33,879 nucleotides of DNA, from positions 1 through 33,879 of IMG/VR virus record IMGVR_UViG_3300020478_000031; one strand, written 5' to 3'. Source of the stretch: a virus. Of the stretch, positions 2 through 26,335 are shown piece by piece (the first letter of the stretch is position 1; each line of letters opens with the position of its first letter). The position numbers were made by a program, and so were the translations under genes. A model generated the notes under the pieces. That model was not told where the DNA came from, searched no databases, and saw only the letters and a list, made by a program, of their open reading frames with translations.

Positions 2-3000
2 ATGGTTATCGCTCAGTACACTGGTGTATCTCTACAGAAAGACGATAGAGCATTCATCAGATACGATGAGTACAGTAACACATTTAACCAAGCATCACTA
101 GCAGACGCATTTGCTACTGTTCCATATCACACCAAAGGTGACGCATATTGGAAGGATGACTGGAGAAACTTCCACGTTCGTGCTTCAGAAGACGCATTTA
201 TCCAGTGTGTTAGTATCTTCGCTGTTGGTTTCGCTGACCACTTCTTGATGGAGTCTGGTGGTGACATGAGTATCACCAACTCTAACAGTAACTTCGGTAA
301 TACATCACTCCATGCTATCGGTCATAAAGGATATGCCTTTGCACAGGATAAGGGTGGATATATTACTGATATTGTTCCTCCACAGATTGTTAATACAACT
401 ACTGGAAATATCAAAAAGAACGCTTATTATACAATTGATATTCCAGCAACAAAAAATCTTAACACTGCATCAGACCAGACTAAGATCTATCTTGGAGACG
501 ATGAAGGATTCAATCCTGAGACACGTCTCGCTGCATCTATTGATGGATTCCGTATAGGTTCTAGGTCAGATGAAAAGTTATTTGTAAAATTAATTCCTAG
601 AACTGCTGGAAGTAGTAATATTTTCAGTGCTACATTATCTCCAAATGGATTTAAGAAATTTAATGCAACTGCAAGTATTCTTAATCCTACTGGTATTACA
701 ATTAACAATAAGGATCTAGACGCTGCTGACCTTATTGAAGCAAATAAAGAATTTATTGCTTATGAGGCATACGGATACATTACTAATAAGTATCCATATC
801 TCTTAGACAGAGAAGGTATTGATATTGTTAAGTGTCGTCGTGACATTGGATACCTACTTGATGCTACTATTCAGGATTTAAGACTTGGTGGTAACATCAA
901 TACTATTCAGGCTGCTGAATCATATTACGTTGGTAATAGTCTATCATATATTACATCAGAACTTACTGAAACTCTAGAGGGTTACGACTACGCTAGAGAT
1001 CTTGCTATTGCATCCATACGTAATTTTACATATCTACGTACTGGTGCAGAAACTGTTGCTGGAACTGCAATTGTTGACATTGGTGATACCAGTGGTGTTG
1101 TACAGGGTATGACAGTTGCTGACTATGATCCTAGTCAGTTCACAGATAACAAACTTAATTCTGGTGCTACACGTCCTGCATCTCCAGTTATTCCAGATAA
1201 CACATACGTTAAGCGTGTTGTATCATCAACAGAGATTGAACTTGGACAGAAAGCAACCTTCTCTACTAAGAAGGTAATCTCTGATCGTAATGGTGATGCT
1301 AGAAACCTATTACTTTCAAACAAATTATTCATTGCTGCTGAAGCATTTGATCGTATGGTCTTGGATTATCCAGGATATACTTCACCTCAAGGATATGGTC
1401 CACAGGATTGTAGAGATGACTTAGTTGACATCGTTGAAGCAATTGCTGAGAACACTGCTTATGGTGGTAACGATGAAGTATGGGATGCTGCTTATCACTA
1501 TGATAGTGGTGCAGTTCAGTATATTTCACAGAAGAAAGATGAGACTATCCGTGCTATTGAATATGCAAGGGATATGTGCATCCAGATCATGCGTAATGAG
1601 AAGTCATTCATCTTTGGTAGTCATGGTCTAACTCAAACATATGATAATACTGTCACTTATGAACCACCTGAAGTGGTTAATGACAGAAATGGTGACGCAC
1701 GTAATCTAATACTCGCTAACAAGCAATTGATTGCTGCTGAATCTGTAGAGAGAATGTTGGTTCGTTCTTCTACTGCTGAGTATACACCAACTGATGCTGA
1801 GTATGATCCAGCAACAGGTGATTTGACCTTAGATATTGCTAGTCATGGTCTACTTGGTCCTACTTCAATCACTGCTTCAAGTGCAGCATATGATCCTGAA
1901 ACTGGTTGGTTAACTGTTACTTCTAATGCTCATGGTTTAGCTGCTGGTAGTAAAGTTAAGATTGAAGATAATTCATTGACATTGACATGCTCAATGGATA
2001 ATAACGCTTCTACTCACACATACCCACGTCCTACTGATCCTATTAGTGATAAGTGGATTGATGTTGTTGAAGCAGATATCAATACATTTAGTGTTGATGT
2101 AGGTAAGTCTCTATTAATTGGACATGATGTAACTGCTGCTACATATGCTCCTGCTACTGGTTTGTTGACTGCAACTATTCCAAACCACGCATTGAGTGAA
2201 GGTCAGAATGTAAGAATTGAAGACGGAGCATTCACATTTACATGTGATCAAGATAGTCATGCTACTCAGCATGTTTATCCTCGTTCATCTGATCCAGCAT
2301 ATCAGAATTCCGTTAAGATTGTATCTGATGGTTCTAAGCACACAGTTACTGGTGCTGGATATAATCCTGATAAGGGTACAATAGAATTTACTCTTACTAA
2401 TCATGGATTCTCTGATGGAGATAAGATTAGACTTGATGACGATTCATTAGTCTTTACTTGTGCAATGGATAACAATGCTACTCAGCATTCATATCCACGT
2501 AAGAGTGATCCTATCAGTGGTAAGTGGGTTACTATTACAAATACAACCAATAATACTTTTGAAGCACACGTTGGAACTACTGGTGCAGTAACATATGATA
2601 TTACTAATGCTAACTATGATCCTGTAAATGGTCAGTTAACAGTTACTGTTGATGGAAACCATGATATTGATGTTGGTGAGAATATCAGATTTGCTACTGA
2701 TGCATTAACATTTACATGTGGTATGGATGGAAACAGTTCTAACCACACTTATCCTCGTGTAACTGACCCTGCATATAACACTGGACTAGAAGTTATTGGT
2801 GTTGGTGGTGACTATGATATCAGTAATGCTAACTACAATCCATCTACAGGTGTACTTGAATTCACTGTTGCTAATCATGGATTGTCAAATGGAGAACTCA
2901 TTAAGATTGCCCAAGAGTCTCTAACATTTACATGTGGTATGGATAACAATGCTTCCGAGCATAAGTATCCACGTGCAAGTGATCCATATTCAGGTGATTG

Positions 3001-6000
3001 GTTATCTGTTTATGATGTACAGCAAAATTCATTTAAGGTTCAGATTGCTGATGCTGGAGCTAACGTAGAGTTTACTCCAACTGATGCTACATATGACCCT
3101 GCAACAGGTGACTTAGAACTTACTGTTGGTGCTCATAATCTATCTGTTGGTGATGGAATCGTCATGGATGACGGTGCTCTATCATTCACATGTACAATGG
3201 ATGGCAACCAAGTTGCTCAGTCATATCCACGTGCAAACCTAGACAAAGCTTCTGGAAGATCTCTTCCAATTACAGCAGTTGATACAGGTAAGTTTACATT
3301 AAATGTAGGTTCTGCTGGTTCTAATAAGTTCCTAACTCCTACTGGTGCAACATATAATCAGAACAATGGTGACATGGTTCTTACTGTTGGTCAGCATGGA
3401 TTCCGTGTTGGTACTGATATTACATTAAAAGATAATTCATTAACATTTACTTGTGATAAAGATGCTGGTGCAACTCAGCATTCATATCCTCGTCCTGGCA
3501 CTGACCCTTATGCTGGTAAGTCTATTGCTATTACAGCAGTTGGTTCTACACAACATACAGCAACTAATGTTGACTACACACCTTCAACTGGTGTTATGGT
3601 TGTTACTGTTGCTAGTCATGGATTCTCACCAGGAGATTACATTCAGGTAGCAGATAATTCTATTACATTAACATGTGATTTAGATGGTAACGTAAGTCAG
3701 AAGACATATCCACGTACTAACTTTGATTCACTAAGCAACAGGTGGGTTCCTATCCTATCAGCAAGCACTGATACATTTACTATTAATGTTGGTTCTTCTA
3801 CTGATAACTCAGTACATACATTTGTATCTGCTTCTGCTAATGGTATCTTAAAGCAAGATGGAACACTAACAATCAATGTTGGTTTCGATGCTGATCCTGC
3901 TAACAGATATGCTCATACATTCGTATCTGCTCTTACCGATGCTGTAGAATATAAGCCTCAGTCAGCACATACATTTGTATCTGCATTAACAAATTCAATT
4001 AAGAATCTACCACAGTCTGCTCACGCATTTAAGAGAGCAGCTGATCATGCTATCTCTAAGAGAGGTGGTGACATTACAGTTAATGTTGGTAAGTCTCCTA
4101 TTGTAGAATTTACACCAACTAATGCTACCTATGATCCTAATACAGGATTGATGGAATTGACTATAGGTAGTCACAGTTTAACTGCTGGCACAAGCATTAA
4201 GATCGATGATGATTCTCTCAAGTTTACTTGTGAGATGGATGGTAATTATAGTACCAAGTCTTATCCTCGTTCAACTGATCCTGTACATGATACTTCTATT
4301 GAAATTACAGCAGCATCAGCTACAACTATTACTATTGACGTTGGTGCATCTCCAATAGTAAGTCACAATGTTGATGATGGTTCATACAATCCTGCAACAG
4401 GTGAGATGACATTGAAGATTGGAAACCACAGTCTAACTGTTGGTGAGTCAATCAAGATTGCTGATGATGGTGTAACATTTAGTTGTACATATGGTAATGT
4501 CCCACACACCTTTATCACTGGTGCTGCTAATGGTATCACGGATGATGGTAGCAATAATTGGACAGCAGCTTCTGGTACAACTTACGATCCTATAACAGGT
4601 GAATTGGTTCTTGAAGTTGGAGCACATGCTTTAAATGCTGCTTCCACACATACAGTAACAGACGCAGTATATAATGCTGCAACTGGTGCTATGGTTGTTA
4701 CTGTTGCTAATCATGGATTTAGTAATGGCGATAGAGTTAAATTTGCTGAAGGTTCCATATCACTTAACTGTGCTATGGATGGTAATGTTTCTACTAAGAC
4801 ATACCCACGCAGATCTGATCCTACATTCGGTAAGTGGTTACAAATCTCTAATGTAACTCAAGATTCATTCTCAGTTGATGTTGGTTCATCTCCATTAATA
4901 CAGCATACACCTACAGCTGCAAATTATAATCCTACCACTGGTATAATGGAACTTACCATTGGTGCTCATAGTTTGACTGTTGGTACTGCTGTTAAGATTG
5001 CAGATAACTCTCTAACATTTACTTGTGCTGAAGATAATCACGCAACAACTCATACCTATCCACGTGCAACTGATCCATTCTCTGATAAATCATTTGCTAT
5101 TACAGATGTAACTGCTACAACAATTAGTGTTCAGGTATTGAGTACAATCCCATCTACTAATACTACAGCACACCTATTTGTTTCTGCAACTGCTAACTGT
5201 GTTACATCTGGTGGAAACTATGCACACACATTTGTATCAGCTACTGCTAGTGGTCTTAAGAAAGCAAATAGTACAATTACATTTGCACAGGATGCATTGA
5301 CATTTACTTGTGATGCTGACAACAATGCTACACAGCACACATATCCACGTGCTACTGACCCATTCCGTAATGAAACATTGGGTCTAGATTCTGTCACTGC
5401 AACAACAATGACAGTATTCGTTGGATTCTCTGTTGGTAGTCAAAGTGCTAAGTCTTATCCTAGATCTGCTACTGAAACACATACAGCTGCTGCTGGTACA
5501 ACATATGATCCAGCTACAGGTATATTAAGTGTAACAACTGCTGCTCATAACATCAAGGACGGTGACTATGTTCAGTTTGCTACTGGTGCATTTACCTTCA
5601 CATGTATGGAGGACAATAATGCTACTCAGCACACATATCCTCGTGTAACTGATCCAGTAAGTAGTAAGTGGTTGAAGGTTTCTAATGTAACTTCAACTAC
5701 ATTTGAAGTACAAGTATTGGATGTTATTCCTTCTACTAACACCACTGCTCACTTGTTCGTAACTGGTAGCACCAACGGTATTACTTCTAAGGTTGATAGA
5801 TCATATGATCAGGCAATAGAAATTACTGGTGTTACTGCTGATACTATCACAGTTAATGTTGGTCCTTCAAGCAAGACTACAGACGTACATACTTTCGTAT
5901 CTGCACTAGCAGGTGCTGTTAAGTCTGGTGGTGGATATGTCCATACATTCAAGTCTGCTGATGCAGGTGCTATTAAGACTGGTGGTAACTATCTACACAC

Positions 6001-9000
6001 ATTTGTATCTGCTACTAGTGGTGCTCTAATTTCTGGTGGTAATTATGCACACACATTTGTTAGTGCTGTTGCCAATGGATTGACAAGGTACAATGATACA
6101 GTAACTTTAGATGTTGGTACATCTTCTAATACAACTGCACATACATTTGTAAGTGCTATACCTAAAGCAATTACTACTGGCGGTAACTATACTCACTCAT
6201 TCATTGATGCTAATCCTAATGGTATTAAGAAGTCTAATGATCGTGTAAGGATTGATTATGGTGCATTGACATTTACCTGTGATATGGATAATCATGGTAG
6301 TTCTCATGCATATCCACGTATTAGTGACCCTGCATATCAAGAGGATCTACCAGTCTTAACAGCATCTACTAATCAGATAACTGTTAATATTGGTAAGACA
6401 ACTCAAGGTAATCTTGACGTAAGTGATGCAGCATATAACCCTGCAAGTGGAGATCTTACTCTAACAGTTGGACAACATAACCTAGAGCCTGGTCAAGACG
6501 TTAAGATCATTGGTAATTCTATCAAGTTCTCATGTAATAAGGATAACAACGCAACAGACCACGCATATCCTAGACCTACTGACCCTGCTGGAACTACATC
6601 TCTACCAGTTAAGGATGTTGGTTCTACTCATCATAGTTCAACAGATGCTTCTTATAATCCAGCAACAGGTGAACTATCATTGGTAGTTGCTAGTCATGGA
6701 TTTAGTGATGGTGACAGAATTAAGATTGCTGATGGATCTCTCACATTTACATGTGATATGGATAACAATGCTACTGAGCATGCTTATCCAAGACTTAAGG
6801 ATCCTATCAATGGTAAGTGGTTATCAATCTATGGTTCAACCACAGATTCATTTAAAGTTAATGTTGGTCAGGCAGGTGCATCACAATCATATACACCAAC
6901 TGGTGCTGATTATCAACCTGCAACTGGTAACTTAGTCCTAACCATTCCTAATCATAATATTCCTAATGGTAAGAATATTACTATAGCACAGAACTCATTG
7001 AAGTTCCGTTGCACAATGGGTGATACTTCTGAGATTAAGACTTATCCTCGTTTAACTGATCCCATCTTCACTACTGGGGCTACAGCACAGGCAGTTTCTG
7101 GTGATGAGTTAGTTATTCAGGTTGGTGCATCACCTCTAGTTACTCATACTCCAACAGGTGCATCATTTGACCCTGTAACTGGTCAGATGACATTGATTAT
7201 TGGTAGTCATAATATCAGTGTTGGTGATTCTGTTAAACTTGCTGATGGTGCTGTCACATTCACATGTGCTCAGGATAATAATGCTACCAATCATGCATAT
7301 CCAAGAACAACTATTGATTCACATAATATATCTGATGCTAGTTACAATCCTACAACAGGTATTCTTACATTAGAGAATAGTGGTCATGGTATTAAGCAAG
7401 GAGACTGGGTTAAGGTAGCAGATAATTCTCTAACCTTTACATGTGCTCAAGATAGTAATGGTACTAACCACACATATCCTCGTACTACTGATCCTATCAG
7501 TAACAAGTGGGTTAAGGTTCTTGCTGTAACTACAGACACATTTGATATTCAAGTATTAGACTTTGCTCCATCTACTAACACTACTGCACATACATTTGTA
7601 TCTGCTGTTGCTGGTGCTGTTACTCAGAAGAGAGATAAGGCATATGATTCTCCTGTAAATGTTACTGCTGTTGCTGCTGATTCTATCACACTTGATGTTG
7701 GTAGGTCTTCTGACACCACACAACATCTATTTGTTTCTGGTCTTGCTGACTCTGTAACCAGTGGTGGTAACTATACTCACACATTTATATCTGCTGACTA
7801 CGGTGCTGTTGTTGCTGATATTACAGAGAATAAGTTCACACCAACAGGTGCAAATTATGATCCTGCTAGTGGAGATCTTACTCTAACAATCGGTGCTCAC
7901 TCTCTTGCAATTGGTGATGGTATTACCATTGATGATAATTCATTGACATTCAAGTGTCAGATGGATGGTGAACAATCCAATAAGATATATCCACGTCCAG
8001 CATCTAAAGCTCTTACTCCTACAACTGGTACAACATATAATCCTACAACAGGTATTGTTTCTGTTACAACTACAACCGATCATGGATTGATGAACGGTGA
8101 CTTCATTAGGATGAATGATGGTGCATTAACATTCAGTTGTGGATTCAATGGAGCAACAGGTAGCAATGCAGAGAAATCATATCCACGTCCTAGTGATCCT
8201 GTAAGTGGTCAGTGGATTAAAGTTTCTAACGTATCATCAAATACATTTGAGTTCCAGTGTCTTGCTGGCACACCTTCTACTAATACAGATGTACATACAT
8301 TTGTAAGTGGTGTTGCTAATTCAATCACACGTCAGACTGGTAGTGACTGGGCTTCTTCAAGATCATTGAACATTATTGATAGAACTGCAAATACAATTAC
8401 AGTTAATGTTGGTGGAGCTGGAGATAACCAGACATGGACTCCTAGTGCTGCTGACTATAACTCAACCACTGGTGAGATGATCCTTACCATTGGTCAACAT
8501 GGTCTTCGTGAAGGTGCAAACATTATCCTTAAAGATAATTCACTAACCTTTACATGTTCTAAAGATAATAACACATCTAATCATAGTTACCCACGTCCAG
8601 GTATTGATCCATTTGCAGGTGAGAAATCTATCACTATTAATGAGGTAGGTGCTACACTTCACAGTGCTGCTGGTGCATCTTATATTCCTGAGACAGGTGT
8701 TCTTTCAGTTACAGTTAACAATCATGGATTCACTAGTGGAGATTATATCCAGATAGTTGATGGTTCACTGGTAATGACATGTGACCTTGATGGTAACGTA
8801 AGTTCCAAAAATTATCCCCGTGCAGGATTTGACTATCCAAGTGGACGTTGGTTAAAGATTCAAAATGTAACAACAAATTCATTTGATGTTAACGTAGGTA
8901 TCTCTAGTGATACTACTAATCATACATTTGTATCTGCTGTTGCTAATGGTATCAAGAGACAGAATGGAACTATTACAGTTAACATTGGTGCATCTCCTTT

Positions 9001-12000
9001 AACTAACTATACACCTACTGCTGCTTCTTATAATGCATCTACTGGTGATCTTGTTCTTACCATTGGAGTACATGATTTACAAAATGGTGAGAAGATTAAA
9101 TTAGCATCTGATTCTTTGACATTTACATGTACTAAGGATAACAATGCTACTAACCACACATATCCTAGAGTTACTGATCCAGCATACAATGCTGATCTAG
9201 AAATTAAGGATGCTACAGCTACAACTATCACAGTTAATGTTGATGTTGGTGCTGTTGCTGACCAGTATGATCATACATTTGTAAGTGCAGCAACTAATGC
9301 TGTTATCTTTAACCAGAGATACACTCACACATTTGTAAGTTCAACTACTAATGCTGTACACTTCGAACCACAGTCACCTCATACATTTGTAAGTGCTGTT
9401 GCTAATTCGATCAAGCATTATCCTACTGCTAACCATACATTTGTAAGAGCAGTTGCTAATAATATTGAAAGAGAGACAGGAACATTCACAGTTAATGTTG
9501 GTGCTGCTGCTCTTGCTGATCAATATCCACACCAGTTTAAGAGTGCATCTGCTGGTGCTATTCAAACTGGTGGTGCATACTTCCATAAGTTTGTTAGTGC
9601 AGTAACTAATTCAATACACAAGGTATTCACAGTTGCTGGTAACCAACAGTATCATAATCAAGATTGTATTGATGATGTTGTTGATCTACTAGATGCAGTT
9701 GCTGATAACATTGCCTATGGTGGTAATGATAAGACATGGGATGCTGCATACTCGTACAAGACTGGTGCTCATGTTGCTGGTGAGGAAGAAGAAACCAATT
9801 ATGTATTTGAGCAAGCACGTGAGATGTCTGCTCAAGCACTTAGAAACCAGAAGATTCTTGTCACTGGTAGTCATGGTTTATCACAGGTATTTGATAAGAG
9901 TATCACATTCAATGAAGCTGATCCTCCAACAGATAGATTTGGTGATGCACGTAACCTAGTTGTTGCTAACAAACTACTCATTGCTGATGAAGCATATGAA
10001 AGAATGTTGGTCAACCATCCTGGATTTGTTCCTCCAACAGGTAACCCACAAGATTGTAAGGATGACATTGTAGACTTCGTTGAAGAAGTTTCATACAACT
10101 TAGCATACGGTGGTAACGATAGAGTTTGGGAAATGACCGATCTCTATGTACAGGGTATGGTTGAAGAAGTTGCTGGAGAAGAAGAACAAACTATCCAAGC
10201 ACTTAATCATGCACGTGATTTGATGATTCAAATCGCTAGGAATGAGAACATTGTAACACTTGGTTCTCATGGTCGTACTCAAGTTAGAGACACTTCTATA
10301 ACTGCCAGTGCAGCTGCTCATGTAAGCAACAGACATGCTGATGCTAAGAATCTAATCTTGGCTAACGTAGAGTTTGCAGCAGAGATTGCATTGGGTAGAA
10401 TGATTGCTCAGTATCCTTCATACACATGGGGTGCTGGTTATAGTTCTACTGATTGTCTTGATGACCTTAAGGATGTAGTTAAAGTTGTTGCACACAACAC
10501 AGGTTATGGTGGTAACCATAGAGTATGGGATGCTGCTAACCTTTATGTTGCTGGTGCTCATGCTGCTGGATCAGAGAATGAAACTATCTTTGCATTCAAT
10601 GCAGTACGTGACATCATCAAAGAGATTGCTACTAATGTAGATGTTACTGTTGGTGGTCACACTGCACTAACTCAGACTAAGGATACAACCATCACTGATG
10701 GTGTAAGCAATGGAGACTGCAACGTTGTACTTAGTGCTATTGATACATTAGTTACTATCTTAACTGGTACAATTCAGAATCCTGCATCACTTGGTAGTGT
10801 TACACGTACAGATTCTAATGGTCCTTGTGAGGACATGAGATCTGCTGTTGGTGTTCTTACTAAGATTGTAACTGATGCTATTGCAGATCCTAGTACATTA
10901 TCTGGTAAGAAGCATACAGTAACAACATCATCTTATAATCCTGCAACTGGTGCTCTAACACTTGACATTGGTGCTCATAGTTATTCAGCTGGAACCAGTG
11001 TTCATATTGTTGACAACAGTTTAACATTCACATGTGCTAGAGATAACAATGCTACTCAGCATACATATCCACGCACAACAGACCCCGTATCTACAAATGA
11101 TCCTACCATTACTGGCACTACTGCTACCACAATCACGGTTAATGTTGGTGTATCACCTGATACGTCAGTTCATACCTTCGTCAGCTCATCAGAAAAAATC
11201 GTAGTTGGTGGAGTTACAAGGACTCCTTCAGTTGGATCATGTGAGGATGTAAGATCAACACTTAACTCACTATTCAAGATTGTTATTGACACAGTTGAAA
11301 CACCAACAAGTCTTGATGGTGTACCAAGAACTATTTCTAATGGTGCTTGTCAACAGGTTGCATCTACAATCACAACTCTCTTCCAGATAATCACTGGAAC
11401 TATTAACTCTGCTTCTTATCTTGACAGTGTTGAAAGGAACCCTGTTCCTCTTGGTCTAGAGTTTGGTCCTTCTATTAATGCTAACGCAACCAGTACTAAC
11501 TCTTACTTGTACTTCCAGTTCATTGATGGAGTATACACAACTCTTACTAGAACAGTTGATGATACTATCACACAGAACACAACATATCCTCAGTGTGTTG
11601 ACCAAGCAAATGCTATTCGTCAGTACTTCTCTAACATTAGCACAGTTATTCAAACTGGACTAGGAACTGTACCACGTAGTGAACCATCACAGTTGTCTAC
11701 TGCACTAGCATCTAGAGCAACAGTCTGGACATTATCACAGGGTGCTGGATCTAATCCACACGATCTTGAGACAGGTACACCAGTTAGATTGGTTCCACGT
11801 CCACGTTATGATACAGCAACCAGTTCTTATGTTGATGTTGATAAGCGTTTCATTAGACTACCTAATGGATTTTCTACCAACCAAGAGTACTATGTAATTG
11901 CTCCTGCAAGAACTACTAAACCTGAGAACTATGGTATATCATCTACATTTAATGGAACAGATCAGACTAAGTTAATGCTTGCAAGCAGCAAAGAGAATGC

Positions 12001-15000
12001 TGCTGCTGGTATCTACCTACACTCTGCTGAAGTAGAAGATATACATCCAGATGTAGAGATTGATCTATATCAATTTGTTCTTGATGATAACTATGATCTA
12101 CATCAATATGCTTGTGTACTTGACGGTGTAAGTAATACTAACATACGTACAGACGTTCCACACATCTTTGATGTTCCATTCTCTAACATCACAGGTCACA
12201 CTGTATTCTTTAGAGAAAGAGAAGGTGGTTCTTTACCTTTAGTTGGTGCAGCATATGCTAGTGATAGTACTGTTGCAGATAGTAATGGTAGATTGTTAGG
12301 TAACAAGTATTTCTATGCTAGGTATCAGACAGAGAAAGTCTTTACTATCCATAAGACTAAGAGTGATTCAGAACAGGGTGTTAACCCAATCACATATCAA
12401 CCAGGCATTTATGACTTTAATGTCTTTGCTAACAAGCGTGAGTCACCAATGCGTTTTGACCCAACGTTTGTTAATCCTAATACTGCACCAGTAATATATG
12501 GTAAGTGGTACTTACAGGTTGAGAATGACAACAGCACAGATCAGATCATTAAGAGGATCAGAGAATATGCTGATGGTATTGATAAGACTAATGACTCTTG
12601 GTTCGAAAGAGTTAAGGATGAGAGACCTGCTGATGATAGACTATATCGTCTACGTTATGTTATACCTCAGTACCTTAAGTCTGTTCGTGATCCACTTAAC
12701 GGATTTACCATTAAGACAAGGACTGACGAAACAAGAAGGTTAGTACCTCAGAAACTATTATTGAAACCTGTATCTGGTAACGTAACTAAAGCACGTTTCT
12801 CTAACCCAGTACAGTCCAATGAGTACATTGGTTATGATAAGCAAGACTTTATTAACTTCAGTCTTAATGATGAAGTAGCATACGATCCATATAAGAAGGA
12901 TCTTGTAGGTAATACACAGTTTGCTAAGATCATTACAACTCAGAACTATATCTCCATGACGATTCAGTCTGGTAGATATGTTACTCAGGGTGCTGATGAG
13001 TTCTTAGAACTAACTGTATTTGAACAGGGTGTTACTAATCCTGCTCTACTTAACACTAAGTTTACTACTGTTAAGATTACTGCACCTCAAGGTGGATCAT
13101 TCACTCCTAACAAGACACAATCTGTACAAAGTAACAGGGTTGAGTGGGCTGGTAACTCTAGTGGTTATGGTTATATCCATGCCATCATGAATGTACCTGG
13201 TACTACTACATGGCACATGATCCTTAAGGATACTGTTGGTAAGATTGATTATGATACCATTGATAACATAAGGTTCAGTCAAGGTACAGCGTTCGCTGAT
13301 CTACTTGCTGATGCTGACTATGGTAAGTCATTGGTACTTAAGGATCTTATTAAGAAAGGATATCCTGAATACTATTACAGACAGAATGGTGCTGGCATCT
13401 ATACTATCACACCAGGTGATATTATTGAAGACGATGCAAGTATCCAATACTATGTTGAGTCAGTAGAAGATGTTGGTCAGATTGATGACACATTCTATAT
13501 CTTCAATACACAAGAGATTCAGAAACGTATCTATGGTCAGCAAGATGGTATCTATTATCTTACTGCTGTTCGTGGTAACATTTCACCACTACCTCAAGGT
13601 GCTGGTAACTTAGGTAACTTCAGGAACTTCAAGTTCTCTCAACCTATCAGCAAACTATATCCATTAAACTATAAGAACGATCCTCTCTGGTATCAGCAGT
13701 TGGATGCAACATTAGTTGATCCACCTCAGACATATTCTGCTGCTGATAACTATACTCATGGTTTAGTACGAGTCAATGACTTTAAGGGTTCATTAACTCA
13801 AGAGAGTGTTATTGATCTACTTAAGAACAATGCATTTGGATCTAATACTTATACACAGGTATCATCCAGCATTGACAATAGATTGAGAGCACAGAAGGGT
13901 AATGCTGCTTCTGGTTCTGAAGATAGATTAATTCCTATTGTTGGTGATAGTACAGTCGTAGCAGATCAACGATACTACGTTGAACTTCGAAGACCATCTA
14001 TCGCAAGAGCAGGTAACCACACATTTGAATATCTTGGTTTTGGTCCAGGTAACTACTCAACTGGTCTACCTCAACGTCAAGAGGTTGTACTCACAGAGAT
14101 ACAAGACTTCTATGCTCAGTCTAAGAAAGAGAATGGTGGTATTGTATTCTACACTGGTCTTAACTCAAATGGTGACCTATACATTGGTAACCGTAAGATT
14201 GATGCTATCACTGGTGAAGAAGTATTCCTTGAGTCTGCAACACTTCAGGATTCTGCTGATGATGACGAGACACTAGGTAATCTAGTTACTACGTTTGATA
14301 CTCCTGTTACATTTAATGAGTACATCACTGTTAATGGTGGTGAGGCTCAGGATAAGAGAAGTACATTCAACTCACCTGTTCTAATTAATGTTCTTGGAAC
14401 TGTTAGAAACAACCCTGCGTTGGTAGTTTCTTCTTTCGTTGATCCTGCTATTGATGATGGTTCTCTTGATAGATCAGCGTTCGTTAGAAATGTCGAAACT
14501 GGTGGTGATATTGTCATTGCTAGGAATAAAATTTCCGCAGCAATTTTCCAGTTCAATAGTCGCAGAGATGGTCAGGCATACAAGATTCAGACACATGTTG
14601 TAGGTGCTGTACCTTCTAACATTACTCCTGATCAAACTGGTGCATTTAATGCAAGTCAGATTGTTCAGTATGGTAATGCTGGTACTCCTGGTTCTGGTGA
14701 CTTCCTACTCAAGGGTGGAAGCATTGGTAAGACTGGATCACTTGGTTGGATCTACTCTAACTACTACACCATAATTGGTAACGCTGTTCCTGAATCATTT
14801 GCATTCAATAACACCAACGTTATTACACTTACATGGGCTACATTAACTAACCAGCAACTTGGTGTTACATCTGCTTCTGAACTTAGAATCAGTGGATTCT
14901 CTGATCCTGATTTCAATGGTACATGGCAGGTCATATCAAATGGATTTAATCCTGCTGCTAATACATTACAGTTTGCTATCGGTGCAACTAAGAACACTGT

Positions 15001-18000
15001 TAACAATCAGAACCCAAGAATGTGGTCTGATGAGGTTACTACTAATCCTAACATTAGACTTGAATACTCTAATTCTAACTGGAAAGAGTGGGGTGTTATT
15101 GGTGCTGAAGCACTTAGAACAGAGACTGATGCTATTGGTGATTACAAACTTGGTGTTAACACAGTTGGTAGATCTGATAAGGCATCCTTCGAAACAAACT
15201 TCGTTGATGCTAAGACAGAACCACGTGCTAACTTAGATGTTGTTGGTACTGCATTCATCAGTGGTAAGAAGATCACTGATTATGCATCACATAACACAGA
15301 TGCTACTAGAACATATCAGGATCGTACTGATGCACTCATGGTTGGTGGAGATTCTGCCACACCAGAGAATGAAGCAACCTTACGTGTTTCTACTGCTAAC
15401 GGTGGACGTGTTGGTATCAATGTAACTAACACTGAATTAGATAGAGCATTAGTTGTTGATGGCACATCTAGATTTACAGATGATGCTAAGTTTGAAGAAG
15501 ACATCGAGATCAATGGTGGTGGTGGAACTAGTACTGCACAGGTTAGAACTACTATTACTACAGGAACGATTGAGTTCTTCCCAAGTCTATTTGTTGGAAC
15601 ATTAGACTTTGCACCTACTGCTGGTACAGTTCATGTTGCTAACGATAGCACTGCTGATCAATTCATTCGTGTAGGTAATGCTTCACTCCATAGTAATATA
15701 TGGATTGGTGCTACTCCTGATACTTCCACCAATATTTCTAAGATAGAGATAGGTGGTGCTTATAATAATAACGAATCATTATCATTCACACTTATAGGTA
15801 CTAAGTCATTCAAGACTAAGGGAGACTTCCAGTTAGGAACAGATAGAGGATTACTTGACACTGTTAAGTTAACATCTACTGCTGGAACTGTTGAGTTCTT
15901 CTCTGGTAGTTCTGCTACATCTAAACTTGACTTTGCTACCAACGCTGCTGAGATCACAATCGCTGGTAAGGGTGGTACTACAACAATTAGAAACAACCTA
16001 GTTGTTGATTCTGCTGCTAGATTTAACTCTGATATCACACTCTGTGGTGGATTTGCTTCTTACGCATTCACAGCATACAGAGCACAAATTGGATCTACTC
16101 CATTCTCTCATGCTAGTGGAGATCTTGGTAACAATGTATTCAACAGTAACGTTGACTTGATTGATGTACTAAGACTTGCAAGCACTGAGGATAATTATAA
16201 CGCAGTTGATACTGCTGGTACTGGTGATTGGGGTGGAACAGTATTCCAGAATGCAATCACACAGATTGCTGGAACTGTTGAACCTCTAACTCTACCAGCT
16301 CTAACTGGTGAGCAGTACTACTTACCACTTAAGAATCGTCCATACGATGCTAATGGTGTTCAGTACTTTAGTGAGCAGGATATACTACTCATTGATACTG
16401 ATGATTCAGGTGGTGTTAAGCATCCAGAATTTGTCAGGATTGTTTCTCTTCCAAGAATCAACGTTGCACCTTACTGGATCGTAGTTGAGAGACTACCATT
16501 TGGTACATACACTGCTAAGAGATCTGATCATAATGATACTACAGCAATCTTCAAGTGTATCGTTCAGTACAATGCTACTTGGACAACTACAACTTTAGAT
16601 GCTACAGGTGCTGAAGAAGATCTATACCTATCACAGTTTGGTGGATCTATTGCAATTGGTGACTATGTAATTGTTGATCGTGAAGATACCACTTCTAATG
16701 GTGTCTTTGATCAAGGTGAGATGTTCAAGGTCAAGACTCTTCTATCTCAGGTTGCTAAGAAACTATCCATTAAGAATGGTTGTGACACTGCTAATGAGGT
16801 AACAGTCTTTGAAGTTGACTCAACAAATGGTAATACTCAGTTGGGTACAGGTGGAACTACCGTTATCAATGGTCAATTGAGTCTCAATGGTACATGTTCT
16901 GCACCTTATACTAACTCCACTACTAATAAGAAGTTAACTATAACAAATGGTTCTGAGGTTACAACCTTCGAGGTTGACACTTGCACAGGTGACACAACTG
17001 TTGGTAACCATCACGGTACAGTCTTCATGCTTTCTGAGCAGTATGGTACTGCACCTGCTGCATATACTAAGGGTGTTGATGAAGTACACGTTTACAGACA
17101 TAATCCAATGTCTGTTATCTCTGGTGGTCCTGCAACACAGATTGCTACTGCTGTTGTACAAGCAACATCTAACATTGAAATTCAAGGTAACCTAACATCA
17201 TTCACTAAGGGTGATCTGGTTGCACTTTATACCACATCATCTATTGAAATCATTCAAATCACTGATGATCCTTACACAGGTTCAGGTGGTGAGTTGATAC
17301 TACCAACAGCATCTAATGCTGAGTATACCAATGGTGGTCGTGGAGTTGAAGGCACGAGTGCGATAGCATTCTCTATCGGTGCTAACGTTGTTAAGTTAGA
17401 CAAGTATGATAGAACTACCACACTCTTACATGATGTACCTGCAACACAGAATGACAGAGCAACAGAACTCAAGGCTAGAACACCTAACACAAGTGATGTT
17501 AGACTTGAGATCACACTTAAAGATGCTGATCTAATTGCTCCTAAACTTGATTATGTAACTCTGGTTAGAATAGGAACTGAATTCTTCCTACCTGATTCTG
17601 TTGATGGATCACTTGATGCATTCTATGCAATCAAGATGCCTAAGCAGATCAGAGAACCTAACGTTATTGGTACTACACCAGTTAAACTATTTGGTGGTGG
17701 ATCTACAACGATCAATCAAGATCTTGAGGTTATCAGTGGTAACGTCAGAATGTATGGTTCTGATGGTAAGACTCTGGTCATGTCCATCGCTAACGATGAT
17801 GGTCACTCAGGTGACGGATCACTTGAAGATCCTAAGACAGATACTGCTGGTCTTACACTTAAGGGTGCTGCTGCATTCTACGGTGATCTTAAGATCTACT
17901 ATGATAACTGTCAGATGCATGGAGTCTGTTCAACCGAGACTTCATTCAGAGTTACCAATAGAGAAGGTAACATCTTGATGGGTGAAACCTTCTATCAGAA

Positions 18001-18610
18001 AGGTAAGGTATTGTCAGTTGAATCAGCAATTGATCCAATATTCCATATAGATAACTTAGGTGCTGCTGGAGTTGGTGGAACTGAAGGTCCTAAAGACTTT
18101 AAGATCTATCAGAACAACGCTATTGACTCATTCGGTATCGAGAAATACTGGACTGCTGGTGGTGGTAGAAGACACACTTATGTTGCCTTCGATCCTACAA
18201 CAGGTCTTGGACAACAACAAGATAACCCACTACAAGTTAACCAGAACTATCTTATTAATGCATCTTCTGGAAGCAACATGGTTGTTTACCTACCAGAGAA
18301 TGCACAAACAGGTGACATGATTAGATTTGTTGAATTGAGTGGTAACCTCACATACAACACAAGTCTGATTATCAGAGCGAAGAAGATCAACAACATTGCT
18401 ACGAATATTCAAGGTGATGGATTTGGTTCAAGAATTGCTGCTGGTGCTGGTCAGACATTGAATACAGCATGGGATTCAGGTGAGTTAATTATCCAGACAC
18501 GCAACGCATCATTCGGTCTAGTTTATGCTGGTACTGTTGACGTTGAAGGTTCTGCTTCTGCACAAACTATTCCTCCTGCATTGAGAGGATGGTGGTTAAT
18601 CGAACTCTAA
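2..18610 (+). CDS. Giant phage virion structural / tail fibre protein (5' end outside window)
   Basis: This frame is open from the window edge for 6202 residues. The ATG at base 2 is probably internal, because it leads directly into compact conserved-looking sequence with no leader. Visible parts in order: a conserved region (about 1-400); alpha-helical modules with DARNL..NK and DC.DD..D motifs (about 427-590 and 3215-3565); about 25 beta-type repeats (about 592-3213); short Cys-containing helical modules (about 3570-3820); a long unrecognised region; a shaft-like region of G-T-[VI]-x-F strands (about 4760-5700); and a C-terminal domain ending ALRGWWLIEL. Established knowledge: T4-like cyanophages often carry one giant virion protein in the late region next to tail-collar genes. 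Role in tail or host adsorption is inferred from composition and neighbours. The next start follows 4 bases after the stop. The exact virion location cannot be told from sequence. Confidence 0.85.
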   Translation: MVIAQYTGVSLQKDDRAFIRYDEYSNTFNQASLADAFATVPYHTKGDAYWKDDWRNFHVRASEDAFIQCVSIFAVGFADHFLMESGGDMSITNSNSNFGNTSLHAIGHKGYAFAQDKGGYITDIVPPQIVNTTTGNIKKNAYYTIDIPATKNLNTASDQTKIYLGDDEGFNPETRLAASIDGFRIGSRSDEKLFVKLIPRTAGSSNIFSATLSPNGFKKFNATASILNPTGITINNKDLDAADLIEANKEFIAYEAYGYITNKYPYLLDREGIDIVKCRRDIGYLLDATIQDLRLGGNINTIQAAESYYVGNSLSYITSELTETLEGYDYARDLAIASIRNFTYLRTGAETVAGTAIVDIGDTSGVVQGMTVADYDPSQFTDNKLNSGATRPASPVIPDNTYVKRVVSSTEIELGQKATFSTKKVISDRNGDARNLLLSNKLFIAAEAFDRMVLDYPGYTSPQGYGPQDCRDDLVDIVEAIAENTAYGGNDEVWDAAYHYDSGAVQYISQKKDETIRAIEYARDMCIQIMRNEKSFIFGSHGLTQTYDNTVTYEPPEVVNDRNGDARNLILANKQLIAAESVERMLVRSSTAEYTPTDAEYDPATGDLTLDIASHGLLGPTSITASSAAYDPETGWLTVTSNAHGLAAGSKVKIEDNSLTLTCSMDNNASTHTYPRPTDPISDKWIDVVEADINTFSVDVGKSLLIGHDVTAATYAPATGLLTATIPNHALSEGQNVRIEDGAFTFTCDQDSHATQHVYPRSSDPAYQNSVKIVSDGSKHTVTGAGYNPDKGTIEFTLTNHGFSDGDKIRLDDDSLVFTCAMDNNATQHSYPRKSDPISGKWVTITNTTNNTFEAHVGTTGAVTYDITNANYDPVNGQLTVTVDGNHDIDVGENIRFATDALTFTCGMDGNSSNHTYPRVTDPAYNTGLEVIGVGGDYDISNANYNPSTGVLEFTVANHGLSNGELIKIAQESLTFTCGMDNNASEHKYPRASDPYSGDWLSVYDVQQNSFKVQIADAGANVEFTPTDATYDPATGDLELTVGAHNLSVGDGIVMDDGALSFTCTMDGNQVAQSYPRANLDKASGRSLPITAVDTGKFTLNVGSAGSNKFLTPTGATYNQNNGDMVLTVGQHGFRVGTDITLKDNSLTFTCDKDAGATQHSYPRPGTDPYAGKSIAITAVGSTQHTATNVDYTPSTGVMVVTVASHGFSPGDYIQVADNSITLTCDLDGNVSQKTYPRTNFDSLSNRWVPILSASTDTFTINVGSSTDNSVHTFVSASANGILKQDGTLTINVGFDADPANRYAHTFVSALTDAVEYKPQSAHTFVSALTNSIKNLPQSAHAFKRAADHAISKRGGDITVNVGKSPIVEFTPTNATYDPNTGLMELTIGSHSLTAGTSIKIDDDSLKFTCEMDGNYSTKSYPRSTDPVHDTSIEITAASATTITIDVGASPIVSHNVDDGSYNPATGEMTLKIGNHSLTVGESIKIADDGVTFSCTYGNVPHTFITGAANGITDDGSNNWTAASGTTYDPITGELVLEVGAHALNAASTHTVTDAVYNAATGAMVVTVANHGFSNGDRVKFAEGSISLNCAMDGNVSTKTYPRRSDPTFGKWLQISNVTQDSFSVDVGSSPLIQHTPTAANYNPTTGIMELTIGAHSLTVGTAVKIADNSLTFTCAEDNHATTHTYPRATDPFSDKSFAITDVTATTISVQVLSTIPSTNTTAHLFVSATANCVTSGGNYAHTFVSATASGLKKANSTITFAQDALTFTCDADNNATQHTYPRATDPFRNETLGLDSVTATTMTVFVGFSVGSQSAKSYPRSATETHTAAAGTTYDPATGILSVTTAAHNIKDGDYVQFATGAFTFTCMEDNNATQHTYPRVTDPVSSKWLKVSNVTSTTFEVQVLDVIPSTNTTAHLFVTGSTNGITSKVDRSYDQAIEITGVTADTITVNVGPSSKTTDVHTFVSALAGAVKSGGGYVHTFKSADAGAIKTGGNYLHTFVSATSGALISGGNYAHTFVSAVANGLTRYNDTVTLDVGTSSNTTAHTFVSAIPKAITTGGNYTHSFIDANPNGIKKSNDRVRIDYGALTFTCDMDNHGSSHAYPRISDPAYQEDLPVLTASTNQITVNIGKTTQGNLDVSDAAYNPASGDLTLTVGQHNLEPGQDVKIIGNSIKFSCNKDNNATDHAYPRPTDPAGTTSLPVKDVGSTHHSSTDASYNPATGELSLVVASHGFSDGDRIKIADGSLTFTCDMDNNATEHAYPRLKDPINGKWLSIYGSTTDSFKVNVGQAGASQSYTPTGADYQPATGNLVLTIPNHNIPNGKNITIAQNSLKFRCTMGDTSEIKTYPRLTDPIFTTGATAQAVSGDELVIQVGASPLVTHTPTGASFDPVTGQMTLIIGSHNISVGDSVKLADGAVTFTCAQDNNATNHAYPRTTIDSHNISDASYNPTTGILTLENSGHGIKQGDWVKVADNSLTFTCAQDSNGTNHTYPRTTDPISNKWVKVLAVTTDTFDIQVLDFAPSTNTTAHTFVSAVAGAVTQKRDKAYDSPVNVTAVAADSITLDVGRSSDTTQHLFVSGLADSVTSGGNYTHTFISADYGAVVADITENKFTPTGANYDPASGDLTLTIGAHSLAIGDGITIDDNSLTFKCQMDGEQSNKIYPRPASKALTPTTGTTYNPTTGIVSVTTTTDHGLMNGDFIRMNDGALTFSCGFNGATGSNAEKSYPRPSDPVSGQWIKVSNVSSNTFEFQCLAGTPSTNTDVHTFVSGVANSITRQTGSDWASSRSLNIIDRTANTITVNVGGAGDNQTWTPSAADYNSTTGEMILTIGQHGLREGANIILKDNSLTFTCSKDNNTSNHSYPRPGIDPFAGEKSITINEVGATLHSAAGASYIPETGVLSVTVNNHGFTSGDYIQIVDGSLVMTCDLDGNVSSKNYPRAGFDYPSGRWLKIQNVTTNSFDVNVGISSDTTNHTFVSAVANGIKRQNGTITVNIGASPLTNYTPTAASYNASTGDLVLTIGVHDLQNGEKIKLASDSLTFTCTKDNNATNHTYPRVTDPAYNADLEIKDATATTITVNVDVGAVADQYDHTFVSAATNAVIFNQRYTHTFVSSTTNAVHFEPQSPHTFVSAVANSIKHYPTANHTFVRAVANNIERETGTFTVNVGAAALADQYPHQFKSASAGAIQTGGAYFHKFVSAVTNSIHKVFTVAGNQQYHNQDCIDDVVDLLDAVADNIAYGGNDKTWDAAYSYKTGAHVAGEEEETNYVFEQAREMSAQALRNQKILVTGSHGLSQVFDKSITFNEADPPTDRFGDARNLVVANKLLIADEAYERMLVNHPGFVPPTGNPQDCKDDIVDFVEEVSYNLAYGGNDRVWEMTDLYVQGMVEEVAGEEEQTIQALNHARDLMIQIARNENIVTLGSHGRTQVRDTSITASAAAHVSNRHADAKNLILANVEFAAEIALGRMIAQYPSYTWGAGYSSTDCLDDLKDVVKVVAHNTGYGGNHRVWDAANLYVAGAHAAGSENETIFAFNAVRDIIKEIATNVDVTVGGHTALTQTKDTTITDGVSNGDCNVVLSAIDTLVTILTGTIQNPASLGSVTRTDSNGPCEDMRSAVGVLTKIVTDAIADPSTLSGKKHTVTTSSYNPATGALTLDIGAHSYSAGTSVHIVDNSLTFTCARDNNATQHTYPRTTDPVSTNDPTITGTTATTITVNVGVSPDTSVHTFVSSSEKIVVGGVTRTPSVGSCEDVRSTLNSLFKIVIDTVETPTSLDGVPRTISNGACQQVASTITTLFQIITGTINSASYLDSVERNPVPLGLEFGPSINANATSTNSYLYFQFIDGVYTTLTRTVDDTITQNTTYPQCVDQANAIRQYFSNISTVIQTGLGTVPRSEPSQLSTALASRATVWTLSQGAGSNPHDLETGTPVRLVPRPRYDTATSSYVDVDKRFIRLPNGFSTNQEYYVIAPARTTKPENYGISSTFNGTDQTKLMLASSKENAAAGIYLHSAEVEDIHPDVEIDLYQFVLDDNYDLHQYACVLDGVSNTNIRTDVPHIFDVPFSNITGHTVFFREREGGSLPLVGAAYASDSTVADSNGRLLGNKYFYARYQTEKVFTIHKTKSDSEQGVNPITYQPGIYDFNVFANKRESPMRFDPTFVNPNTAPVIYGKWYLQVENDNSTDQIIKRIREYADGIDKTNDSWFERVKDERPADDRLYRLRYVIPQYLKSVRDPLNGFTIKTRTDETRRLVPQKLLLKPVSGNVTKARFSNPVQSNEYIGYDKQDFINFSLNDEVAYDPYKKDLVGNTQFAKIITTQNYISMTIQSGRYVTQGADEFLELTVFEQGVTNPALLNTKFTTVKITAPQGGSFTPNKTQSVQSNRVEWAGNSSGYGYIHAIMNVPGTTTWHMILKDTVGKIDYDTIDNIRFSQGTAFADLLADADYGKSLVLKDLIKKGYPEYYYRQNGAGIYTITPGDIIEDDASIQYYVESVEDVGQIDDTFYIFNTQEIQKRIYGQQDGIYYLTAVRGNISPLPQGAGNLGNFRNFKFSQPISKLYPLNYKNDPLWYQQLDATLVDPPQTYSAADNYTHGLVRVNDFKGSLTQESVIDLLKNNAFGSNTYTQVSSSIDNRLRAQKGNAASGSEDRLIPIVGDSTVVADQRYYVELRRPSIARAGNHTFEYLGFGPGNYSTGLPQRQEVVLTEIQDFYAQSKKENGGIVFYTGLNSNGDLYIGNRKIDAITGEEVFLESATLQDSADDDETLGNLVTTFDTPVTFNEYITVNGGEAQDKRSTFNSPVLINVLGTVRNNPALVVSSFVDPAIDDGSLDRSAFVRNVETGGDIVIARNKISAAIFQFNSRRDGQAYKIQTHVVGAVPSNITPDQTGAFNASQIVQYGNAGTPGSGDFLLKGGSIGKTGSLGWIYSNYYTIIGNAVPESFAFNNTNVITLTWATLTNQQLGVTSASELRISGFSDPDFNGTWQVISNGFNPAANTLQFAIGATKNTVNNQNPRMWSDEVTTNPNIRLEYSNSNWKEWGVIGAEALRTETDAIGDYKLGVNTVGRSDKASFETNFVDAKTEPRANLDVVGTAFISGKKITDYASHNTDATRTYQDRTDALMVGGDSATPENEATLRVSTANGGRVGINVTNTELDRALVVDGTSRFTDDAKFEEDIEINGGGGTSTAQVRTTITTGTIEFFPSLFVGTLDFAPTAGTVHVANDSTADQFIRVGNASLHSNIWIGATPDTSTNISKIEIGGAYNNNESLSFTLIGTKSFKTKGDFQLGTDRGLLDTVKLTSTAGTVEFFSGSSATSKLDFATNAAEITIAGKGGTTTIRNNLVVDSAARFNSDITLCGGFASYAFTAYRAQIGSTPFSHASGDLGNNVFNSNVDLIDVLRLASTEDNYNAVDTAGTGDWGGTVFQNAITQIAGTVEPLTLPALTGEQYYLPLKNRPYDANGVQYFSEQDILLIDTDDSGGVKHPEFVRIVSLPRINVAPYWIVVERLPFGTYTAKRSDHNDTTAIFKCIVQYNATWTTTTLDATGAEEDLYLSQFGGSIAIGDYVIVDREDTTSNGVFDQGEMFKVKTLLSQVAKKLSIKNGCDTANEVTVFEVDSTNGNTQLGTGGTTVINGQLSLNGTCSAPYTNSTTNKKLTITNGSEVTTFEVDTCTGDTTVGNHHGTVFMLSEQYGTAPAAYTKGVDEVHVYRHNPMSVISGGPATQIATAVVQATSNIEIQGNLTSFTKGDLVALYTTSSIEIIQITDDPYTGSGGELILPTASNAEYTNGGRGVEGTSAIAFSIGANVVKLDKYDRTTTLLHDVPATQNDRATELKARTPNTSDVRLEITLKDADLIAPKLDYVTLVRIGTEFFLPDSVDGSLDAFYAIKMPKQIREPNVIGTTPVKLFGGGSTTINQDLEVISGNVRMYGSDGKTLVMSIANDDGHSGDGSLEDPKTDTAGLTLKGAAAFYGDLKIYYDNCQMHGVCSTETSFRVTNREGNILMGETFYQKGKVLSVESAIDPIFHIDNLGAAGVGGTEGPKDFKIYQNNAIDSFGIEKYWTAGGGRRHTYVAFDPTTGLGQQQDNPLQVNQNYLINASSGSNMVVYLPENAQTGDMIRFVELSGNLTYNTSLIIRAKKINNIATNIQGDGFGSRIAAGAGQTLNTAWDSGELIIQTRNASFGLVYAGTVDVEGSASAQTIPPALRGWWLIEL
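1280..1660 (+). repeat. Intact alpha-helical module, copy 1, in giant protein
   Basis: The encoded module starts with DARNLLLSNK, continues through an ERM/DRM-like helix and a short P-G-Y linker to DCRDDLVDIVEAIAEN, then AYGGNDEVWDAA, then a second helix (YARDMCIQIMRN) and a GSHGLTQ end. The same order recurs at 9924-10300 and 10322-10690, and as two separated halves at 1677-1765 and 9650-9915. It reads as a tandem structural domain; no function is known to me. Confidence 0.8.
1775..9640 (+). repeat. Array of about 25 diverged beta-type repeats in the giant protein
   Basis: Repeats of roughly 90-110 residues follow the pattern YDPATG.L.LTI..H.L..G..I.I.D.SLTFTC.MDNNAT.H.YPR..DP. They then run into a V.VG strand and often one or more H-T-F-V-S-A-x-x-N-[AG]-[IV] hairpin-like units. 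I count 25 YPR signatures and about 25 HTFVSA-type signatures by eye. Copies have diverged in protein and DNA, so this is old duplication, although short DNA blocks such as those encoding HTFVSA are almost identical between copies. Nearly every unit keeps one cysteine in F-T-C followed by Asp/Asn-rich residues. The alternating strand/turn composition suggests a beta-sandwich or beta-solenoid stalk; glycan or ion binding is only a guess. Confidence 0.88.
9650..10690 (+). repeat. Second half of a split helical module plus two intact copies
   Basis: The segment opens with the DCIDDVVDLLDAVADN half-module, whose missing first half lies before the beta array at 1677-1765. Two intact modules follow. 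One begins DARNLVVANK and contains DCKDDIVDFVEE, AYGGNDRVWE and GSHGRTQ. The other begins DAKNLILANV and contains DCLDDLKDVVKV, GYGGNHRVWDAA and GGHTALTQ. The regular order supports a tandem helical repeat domain. Confidence 0.8.
10907..11212 (+). repeat. Isolated 102-residue beta repeat inserted in a different helical module
   Basis: One unit of the large-array type stands alone here. It has YNPATGALTLDIGAH, SLTFTCARDNNAT, HTYPRTTDP and an HTFVSS end. Its flanks are a short helical module whose sister copies read ..SLGSVTRT.. and ..SLDGVPRT... Here the same site reads LSG, then the 102-residue unit, then VTRT. Removal would restore a normal module in frame. Confidence 0.8.
14280..17050 (+). 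other. Fibre-shaft-like region of the giant protein
   Basis: The encoded segment has recurring N-N-x-V-V-D-x-x-x-R-F-x-x-D-[IV] and G-T-V-E-F-F strand patterns, with G-G-T-T-T-I turns. It ends with two copies of a K-L-[ST]-I-x-N-G...T-x-F-E-V-D-[ST]..G-[ND]-T..G motif near 16760-17010. This is typical of trimeric phage fibre shafts. It precedes the C-terminal tip domain (about 18200-18610). Domain limits are approximate. Confidence 0.55.
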
Positions 18611-25428: not shown

Positions 25429-25431
25429 ATA
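25425..25431 (+). promoter_or_regulatory. T4-type late promoter element CTAAATA
   Basis: CTAAATA overlaps the stop codon of the adhesin gene and lies 22 bases before the next ATG, with GGAGA (25436-25440) between. T4-like phages use TATAAATA-like late -10 elements with the gp55 sigma factor. A 7-base match in AT-rich DNA is not conclusive, but its position at the only gap after the fibre cluster supports it. Confidence 0.5.
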
Positions 25432-25453
25432 CTACGGAGATACTAATAATACA

Positions 25454-26335
25454 ATGGCAGATGCACCAGTACTGCAAGTACAGTTAGATGTTATCAATCA
25501 GGAGATTGAGTACAACGGTACACCAAAGACTATTCCTGAAACATATTGGAAGGACACTCTCACTCCAATGCTATATCCTTTATGGGACAGTGATAAAGAT
25601 AAACTTATCACATTCCAGTGGTTTACCAATGATTCATATACTGCCAAGCGTAGGAAGTATGTAAAAGATTTCAAGGCTGGCACATTTAAGTGGGTTGACT
25701 ATGAAATGGAAGCAGTTGGTGCTACTGAAGCAACTGCATTTAAAGATAAGTTAATTGAAGCATTTTATTTAATTGATTCACTTGAGAATCAAGAGTTCCA
25801 AGATGAATTGGCTAGAATGTATTCTAAGCAGAAGTCAGTTACACCAATGAGTGTAAGACTAGCAAGAGATTTTCTCTTAGATGAAACAGATTGGACACAG
25901 ATAGCAGATGCACCAATTGATGCTGATCTTAAAGCACAGTATGTATTATACAGACAAAAATTAAGAGAACTAACTGATTCTGATGAGTTTGTTAATGACA
26001 CAGAGAATACTAAGTTCCCTATATCTCCAGAGTTTTACAATAAAATACACAAGGTAGACTTCCCAACTGAAGATTATCTTGCAACTGACTCACAGTTTAT
26101 TGAGATGGGTAAGCATCGTCTTAATAAGTTTAAAGATAAGATAGCATATTTCTTGACACTCAAGTCAGAAACTGATAAGACATACTTCAGTGATCTATTA
26201 ATACAGTATGATAGAATCAAAACAACTAAAGTTCTTGCTAGTGATGGACTGCTTAGTGATGTTGAGGATAATAGAGAGTTCTTAGAGAAACTCATTCAAC
26301 AAGCTAATGACACTCTCGATGATTTAGACACATGA
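25454..26335 (+). CDS. Conserved-looking phage protein, 293 residues, function unknown
   Basis: I do not recognise a family. The protein is acidic and mostly alpha-helical by composition, with no signal peptide or membrane segment. It contains WKDTLTPMLYPLWDSDKDK early, a central FYLIDSLENQEFQDELARM helix and a C-terminal helix ending in DTLDDLDT. ATG is chosen because it follows GGAGA (13-base spacing) and a late promoter. The stop overlaps the next start as ATGA. Late-promoter linkage after fibre genes makes a virion or assembly role (for example fibre chaperone) possible, but nothing in the sequence proves it. Confidence 0.8.
   Translation: MADAPVLQVQLDVINQEIEYNGTPKTIPETYWKDTLTPMLYPLWDSDKDKLITFQWFTNDSYTAKRRKYVKDFKAGTFKWVDYEMEAVGATEATAFKDKLIEAFYLIDSLENQEFQDELARMYSKQKSVTPMSVRLARDFLLDETDWTQIADAPIDADLKAQYVLYRQKLRELTDSDEFVNDTENTKFPISPEFYNKIHKVDFPTEDYLATDSQFIEMGKHRLNKFKDKIAYFLTLKSETDKTYFSDLLIQYDRIKTTKVLASDGLLSDVEDNREFLEKLIQQANDTLDDLDT

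Follow-up and report, generated by a model that had tools for sequence, protein, structure and literature searches.

The stretch of DNA analysed here, referred to below as the window, is a viral contig of 33.9 kb (IMG/VR record IMGVR_UViG_3300020478_000031, positions 1 to 33,879) that begins within a giant tail-fibre gene. In profile searches, pieces of this open reading frame (ORF) match phrog_4527 with E values of 4e-225 and 0, which assigns it to the cyanophage short tail fibres. As the first of these matches begins at profile position 929, the N-terminus lies outside the window; in the near-complete sister genome G001, the full-length frame reaches 6,620 amino acids (aa). A helical module of ~130 aa occurs five times in the fibre; the third copy is split and the other four are intact. 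Profile and fold comparisons show that this helical module is a divergent phycobiliprotein domain of the PF00502 (Phycobilisome) type, present in tandem in a giant fibre of T4-like cyanophages. Furthermore, sequence comparisons provide good support for the insertion of a long array of beta repeats in one loop of module 3, this loop joining the two helices ahead of the bilin cysteine. The features of the locus are as follows:

2..18610, + strand: giant tail-fibre ORF, 6,202 aa, 5' end cut by the contig edge; phrog_4527 'short tail fiber'
707..1066, + strand: module 1, phycobiliprotein-like, alpha-type, residues 236-355; K-C-R-R-D, Cys278 at nt 833-835
1283..1660, + strand: module 2, intact, phycobiliprotein-like, residues 428-553; D-C-R-D-D, Cys470
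1682..1762, + strand: module 3, first half, residues 561-587; VERMLV at its end
1763..9625, + strand: inserted array, residues 588-3208; 27 beta units of ~85 aa (E1-FCCH-like) and 25 short H-T-F-V repeats
9626..9907, + strand: module 3, second half, residues 3209-3302; FTVAGN...DCIDD, Cys3222
9932..10303, + strand: module 4, intact, residues 3311-3434; D-C-K-D-D, Cys3352
10328..10696, + strand: module 5, intact, residues 3443-3565; D-C-L-D-D, Cys3485
10913..11212, + strand: second insertion, one beta unit, residues 3638-3737, within helical repeats past module 5
18615..26335, + strand: downstream fibre cassette, i.e. short tail fibre (gp12-like), collar protein, virion structural protein and tail-fibre assembly chaperone

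The two halves of the helical module, A and B, were located separately by profile searches. In the window ORF, half A is found at residues 236, 428, 561, 3311 and 3443 and half B at residues 277, 468, 3220, 3350 and 3484. Half A is separated from half B by 2,632 residues in module 3, whereas this spacing is 11-26 residues in the 342 intact modules found in the window and in its relatives. Indeed, the first half of module 3 stops at residue 587 and the second half restarts at residue 3209, the ~2,620 intervening residues being in frame and including all the beta units and H-T-F-V repeats of the array, as counted with hidden Markov models. The interruption of a module by the repeat array, proposed in an original prediction made from the DNA sequence, is thus confirmed; the same prediction counted three intact modules, one fewer than the profiles reveal, module 1 being divergent. 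It also held that deletion of the array would rebuild a normal module in frame. This holds for the removal of codons 588-3208 (nt 1763-9625), which yields ...VERMLV followed by FTVAGNQQYHNQDCIDD..., a junction matching that of array-free relatives (for example ...ARML followed by TTYPSFTVTGGNQNCIDD...), but not for the slightly longer interval initially given (nt 1763-9660), whose length is not divisible by three. Beyond what chance would give, every one of the 41 interrupted A-B pairs found, not all of them independent, is broken at this loop of module 3. The two halves may pack together, with the array projecting as a side arm or extending the fibre; the one model that includes both of them, that of a short-array homologue, is of low confidence in the second half. 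Beta folds fill the Foldseek and VIA match lists of this model, and the phycobiliproteins missing there therefore say nothing.

The presence and length of the array were compared among IMG/VR relatives (50 distinct sequences, window included) on an unrooted tree built from the flanking modules. An array is found at exactly this loop in 31 of the 50 sequences, with a length of 854-2,632 aa, and module 3 is uninterrupted in the remaining 19, which provide the array-free homologues whose absence would have spoken against the prediction. One 100/100 branch separates the 31 array-bearing from the 19 array-free sequences. The presence or absence of the array switches once on the tree, which, being unrooted, does not polarise gain versus loss. 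The array-free phages read ...RML-xxYPSFTVAGGNQNCIDD..., and the array-bearing ones ...RMLxxSSTxxxTPT, then the array, then SVHKxFSVAGNxxYHNQDCIDD...; therefore, the second half of the loop has been kept. The array can be removed in frame and varies in length while the flanking module is conserved, in agreement with the location in a single loop that had been predicted.

The growth of the array within that loop, also part of the prediction, is supported in the lineage of the window. There, the segment 588-1363 matches the short array of relatives along almost its full length (55% identity with that of L056 and 49% with that of L082, over most of the array) and the remainder resembles additional copies. 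The array of the window's clade was later enlarged about threefold by copying itself. Single units or short runs are found elsewhere: the second insertion of the window (10913-11212) is absent from L025 and other array-free relatives, and others lie between modules 3 and 4 in L068 or, in L063, L065 and L069, within module 3 but in a later loop. As one subtype (KKTV ... S-x-[KQ]-I-x-V-G-G), carried by the second insertion of the window and by module 3 of L063, L065 and L069, occupies two loops, single units may have been copied between loops. With lengths between 0 and 2,632 aa at a single loop of a single domain in closely related phages, the array offers a clean natural series for the growth of giant phage fibres.

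The beta units are not clearly assigned to a known sequence family, as Pfam and PDB sequence searches give weak matches (PF16190, E1_FCCH, E 0.003-0.004, below the cut-off); their likeness to FCCH domains is at the level of the fold. Their best VIA match is a Uba1-type E1 (Z 8.7, 78 aa, 2.5 Å), and stalk domains of phage endosialidases also rank among the best fold matches (Z 7-8). Unlike the E1 FCCH domains, whose sequence profile they match only below the cut-off, the phage units form a tandem of 27 in which a Cys and a Y-P-R motif (F-T-C-x-x-D ... Y-P-R) are conserved, either one being present in ~90% of 456 distinct units. Ig-like domains are known as mobile beta domains inserted in phage structural proteins; the units of the array differ from them in that they are not Ig-like by their best matches and form a long tandem within the loop of another domain. 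The same beta units are also carried by other giant cyanophage structural proteins (phrog_701, 18802, 5342 and 2885).

The assignment of the helical module rests on several comparisons. PF00502 is the sole Pfam family found on the first module-bearing pieces of the ORF, with E values (8.9e-4 and 0.029) below the cut-off, and it matches 20 of 28 diverse modules (best 7.9e-5), every other family matching at most two. The window's own modules score below the PF00502 cut-off, whereas several deposited fibres exceed it; for some of the latter, the family may already be included in the InterPro annotation. When a module profile is compared with all PDB sequences, phycobiliproteins occupy all 60 matches listed (best 6e-5), and the profile of module 1 favours alpha subunits (3.7e-4); a single module gives weak matches (E 0.35-1). 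When aligned by HHalign with phycocyanins from the genomes of cyanobacteria, module 1 scores 92.8% and the module set 89.4% versus 0-5.0% for eight shuffled or reversed profiles, module 1 preferring alpha and the module set beta subunits. Only genuine genome matches (82-91% identity to the phycocyanin query that fetched these genomes) were aligned. Finally, a template-free AlphaFold2 (AF2) model of modules 1 and 2 of the window retrieves phycobiliprotein, phycobilisome or related fluorescent-protein entries in all 50 Foldseek matches listed, and its VIA matches are of these same kinds, with the exception of one designed protein (Z 10.0-10.7, 102-114 aa, ~3-4 Å). The confidence of this model is low and its fold match covers module 1 only.

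The modules share with phycobiliproteins (PF00502; alpha and beta subunits of phycocyanin, phycoerythrin and allophycocyanin) the fold, the order of the helices, the bilin cysteine, the aspartate at Cys+3 and a P-x-G-N type loop ahead of the cysteine, module 1 further sharing K-C-x-R-D. The aligned bilin-attachment cysteine (84/82 equivalent) is kept in 232 of 234 distinct modules and the aspartate in all 234. K-C-R-R-D, whose equivalent in alpha-phycocyanin is K-C-A-R-D, is found in 45 of these modules, which are of the module 1 type; this unselected count was used instead of the invariance of the motif in alignments A4 and A5, whose rows had been chosen by that motif. However, unlike phycobiliproteins, the phage modules belong to a virus fibre, are in tandem, are only ~130 aa long, mostly score below the Pfam cut-off and lack both the X/Y hairpin and, in modules 2-5, the arginine. 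They are relatives within the phycobiliprotein superfamily rather than phycobilisome subunits, i.e. a known superfamily in a new setting. In size, they are close to the engineered single-domain smURFP (PDB 7uqa, chain of 131 aa; VIA Z 10.5 over 105 aa), from which they differ in that their chromophore is putative. An extra segment within a phycobiliprotein-type domain has a precedent in the ApcE core-membrane linker, whose PB-loop is located between helices B and E. This loop is dispensable, since its deletion left the membrane association of ApcE intact (PMC4553884). It differs in being a short loop of a cellular linker protein, whereas the phage array belongs to a virion protein and consists of repeated domains totalling 854-2,632 aa. 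No paper linking phycobiliproteins to cyanophage virion proteins was found in the openly readable literature.

PF00502 matches 15 of 15 cyanophage records, in ORFs of ~2,800-6,600 aa and above the Pfam cut-off in seven records, and Synechococcus elongatus alone passes this cut-off among 14 control genomes. Using modules 2 and 3A as tblastn queries against 50,697 phage records, 327 were matched, all named as Synechococcus or Prochlorococcus phages or cyanophages. The module profile finds S-PM2, P-HM2 and S-BM3 and gives no match in P-SSP7, Syn5, S-CBS2, T4, the pelagiphage HTVC008M or P-SSM2. The gene and its neighbourhood correspond to phrog_4527 and T4-like GC734 of Kyanoviridae (S-PM2, Syn1, S-RSM4, S-WAM2), in which gp5 and cpeT lie upstream of the fibre gene and gp12-like genes downstream, the order of the downstream cassette being common to these phages and to the window. 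Nevertheless, the named isolates tested differ from the window by the number of modules and by beta units at other sites.

Genes related to bilins are found near the fibre gene. A cpeT homologue (bilin-lyase-like) lies upstream of it in 29 of 29 loci, the nearest one within 2.7 kb; these loci were selected by the fibre and by at least 3 kb of upstream sequence, are not all independent and exclude P-HM2 (L119), which had been fetched for its cpeT. Fourteen of them carry two cpeT genes, separated in seven cases by a ferredoxin-dependent bilin reductase gene; Pfam confirms these assignments. The sister genome G001 carries modules in three of its ORFs, together with genes for a heme oxygenase, a bilin reductase and two CpeT proteins; over the tested stretches, its modules share 94-96% identity with those of the window. 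According to PMC3037559, what the bilin-synthesis genes do in cyanophages is a mystery and the role of phage cpeT is unsettled. Besides, several marine cyanomyoviruses are reported to adsorb in a light-dependent manner (PMC2984593); according to modelling, the dark adsorption of P-HM2 is near zero and P-SSP7 shows no light effect (PMC7112961). The distribution of the module agrees with this contrast, P-HM2 having it and P-SSP7 lacking it, although the agreement is weak evidence because the two phages differ in much else. No phage-side receptor for the adsorption of cyanomyoviruses was found in the openly readable literature.

These data suggest a mechanism in which the conserved Cys and Asp of the modules would bind a linear tetrapyrrole (bilin), either made by the phage heme oxygenase and bilin reductase or taken from the host. 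The CpeT-like lyases encoded upstream would attach it, making the fibre a chromoprotein on the virion, and the array would be a spacer or a side arm compatible with an intact pigment domain. We consider the chances about even that the fibre carries a covalently bound bilin and that the array is such a spacer or side arm. More speculatively, the pigment could make fibre deployment or adsorption responsive to light; that virions are chromoproteins whose phage-made, CpeT-attached bilins form a light sensor gating adsorption seems rather unlikely. The binding of a pigment would make the system new in kind, and light-gated chromoprotein virions, if they exist, would account for the orphan bilin genes of cyanophages as well as for their light-dependent adsorption. 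The fibre, with its phycobiliprotein-like domains, conserved bilin cysteine and adjoining lyase genes, is a concrete and cheaply testable link between these genes and that adsorption.

The main rival explanation, whose probability falls only somewhat short of even, is a structural exaptation: phycobiliprotein domains derived from the host would serve only as helical building blocks, without any chromophore, the Cys and Asp being retained for folding or packing; the bilin and cpeT genes would act on the antenna of the host, as is usually assumed. The recruitment of folds for structural purposes is common in tail fibres. Such a role would be consistent with the loss of the cysteine in two modules and with the lack of the arginine of C-x-R-D in modules 2-5, which read C-x-D-D, as nearly all modules other than module 1 have Asp or another residue at Cys+2. 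Several other facts weigh against a pigmented fibre or against the assignment on which it depends: the low confidence (59.5) of the model of modules 1 and 2; the lack, in all modules, of the N-terminal X/Y helical hairpin involved in alpha-beta assembly, the alignments starting at about residue 32-38; and the generally conserved gene order of these phages, owing to which the cpeT neighbourhood partly reflects shared ancestry. The gene contents do not always match either: S-BM3 has the module and no CpeT, the P-HM2 fibre adjoining cpeT is devoid of module, and P-SSM2 keeps a heme oxygenase with neither CpeT nor module. The latter phage also has pebS (PMC3037559). Furthermore, the cysteine described as the target of CpeT and other T-type lyases is Cys-153 and not the Cys-82/84 equivalent conserved in the modules (PMC10452541). 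However, a purely structural role does not easily account for the near invariance of the Cys and Asp among modules sharing as little as 23-37% identity with module 1, for the K-C-R-R-D kept by module 1, or for the lyase genes, accompanied in seven loci by bilin-reductase genes, beside the fibre gene.

Two further explanations have lower probabilities. It is improbable that the array lies outside any loop of a folded module and merely separates two parts of the fibre, the two halves of module 3 being unfolded remnants or independent of each other: the weakness of the spanning model in the second half would fit such remnants, but both halves, including the Cys motif, keep the conservation of intact modules in every array-bearing relative, the loop remnant F-[TS]-[VI]-[AG]-G is kept at the junction, and another single unit is tolerated in the later module 3 loop of L063, L065 and L069. 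Still less probable, and largely refuted, is a resemblance to phycobiliproteins due to chance or to convergence of helical bundles. Although the weak matches of single modules and the low-confidence model might suggest it, four independent methods give exclusive match lists and the shuffled or reversed profile controls score near zero, which rules out a fortuitous or compositional likeness; moreover, some fibres exceed the cut-off of Pfam itself, the functional Cys and Asp align, and different modules prefer alpha or beta subunits.

Various other features were observed in these phages. Large ORFs other than the fibre gene also carry phycobiliprotein-like modules in G001 (C1:106282-106587 and 134596-134970) and in S-PM2 (55552-57972, annotated as tail fiber protein GC 830). 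The ~16 tRNAs annotated inside the fibre coding sequence (CDS) of S-PM2 (L097, NC_006820, 8249-13076) were rejected as a gene feature, ARAGORN finding none; in RefSeq, they bear the locus tag of the CDS itself and are probably an annotation error. In most loci, the two cpeT genes are separated by an ORF of ~96-98 aa, a relative of T4-like GC730 without Pfam match (for example, L079 5319-5609 and L033 5652-5948). Past module 5 (window ~10697-11400), the fibre contains helical repeats of ~35 aa with one Cys each (G-x-C-x-x-V/D ... L-x-x-I ... V-x-R-T), present in array-bearing and array-free relatives alike. Further downstream, two adjoining ORFs (26882-27835 and 28447-29226) match the same stretch of the DNA methyltransferase family phrog_67 and are tandem paralogues. 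Lastly, the region ~22000-25000, inside a 1,262-aa virion protein ORF, has a GC content of up to 0.44-0.46 and a GC skew near 0.27 and contains a GGTGCTGGTGCAGCTGGA repeat.

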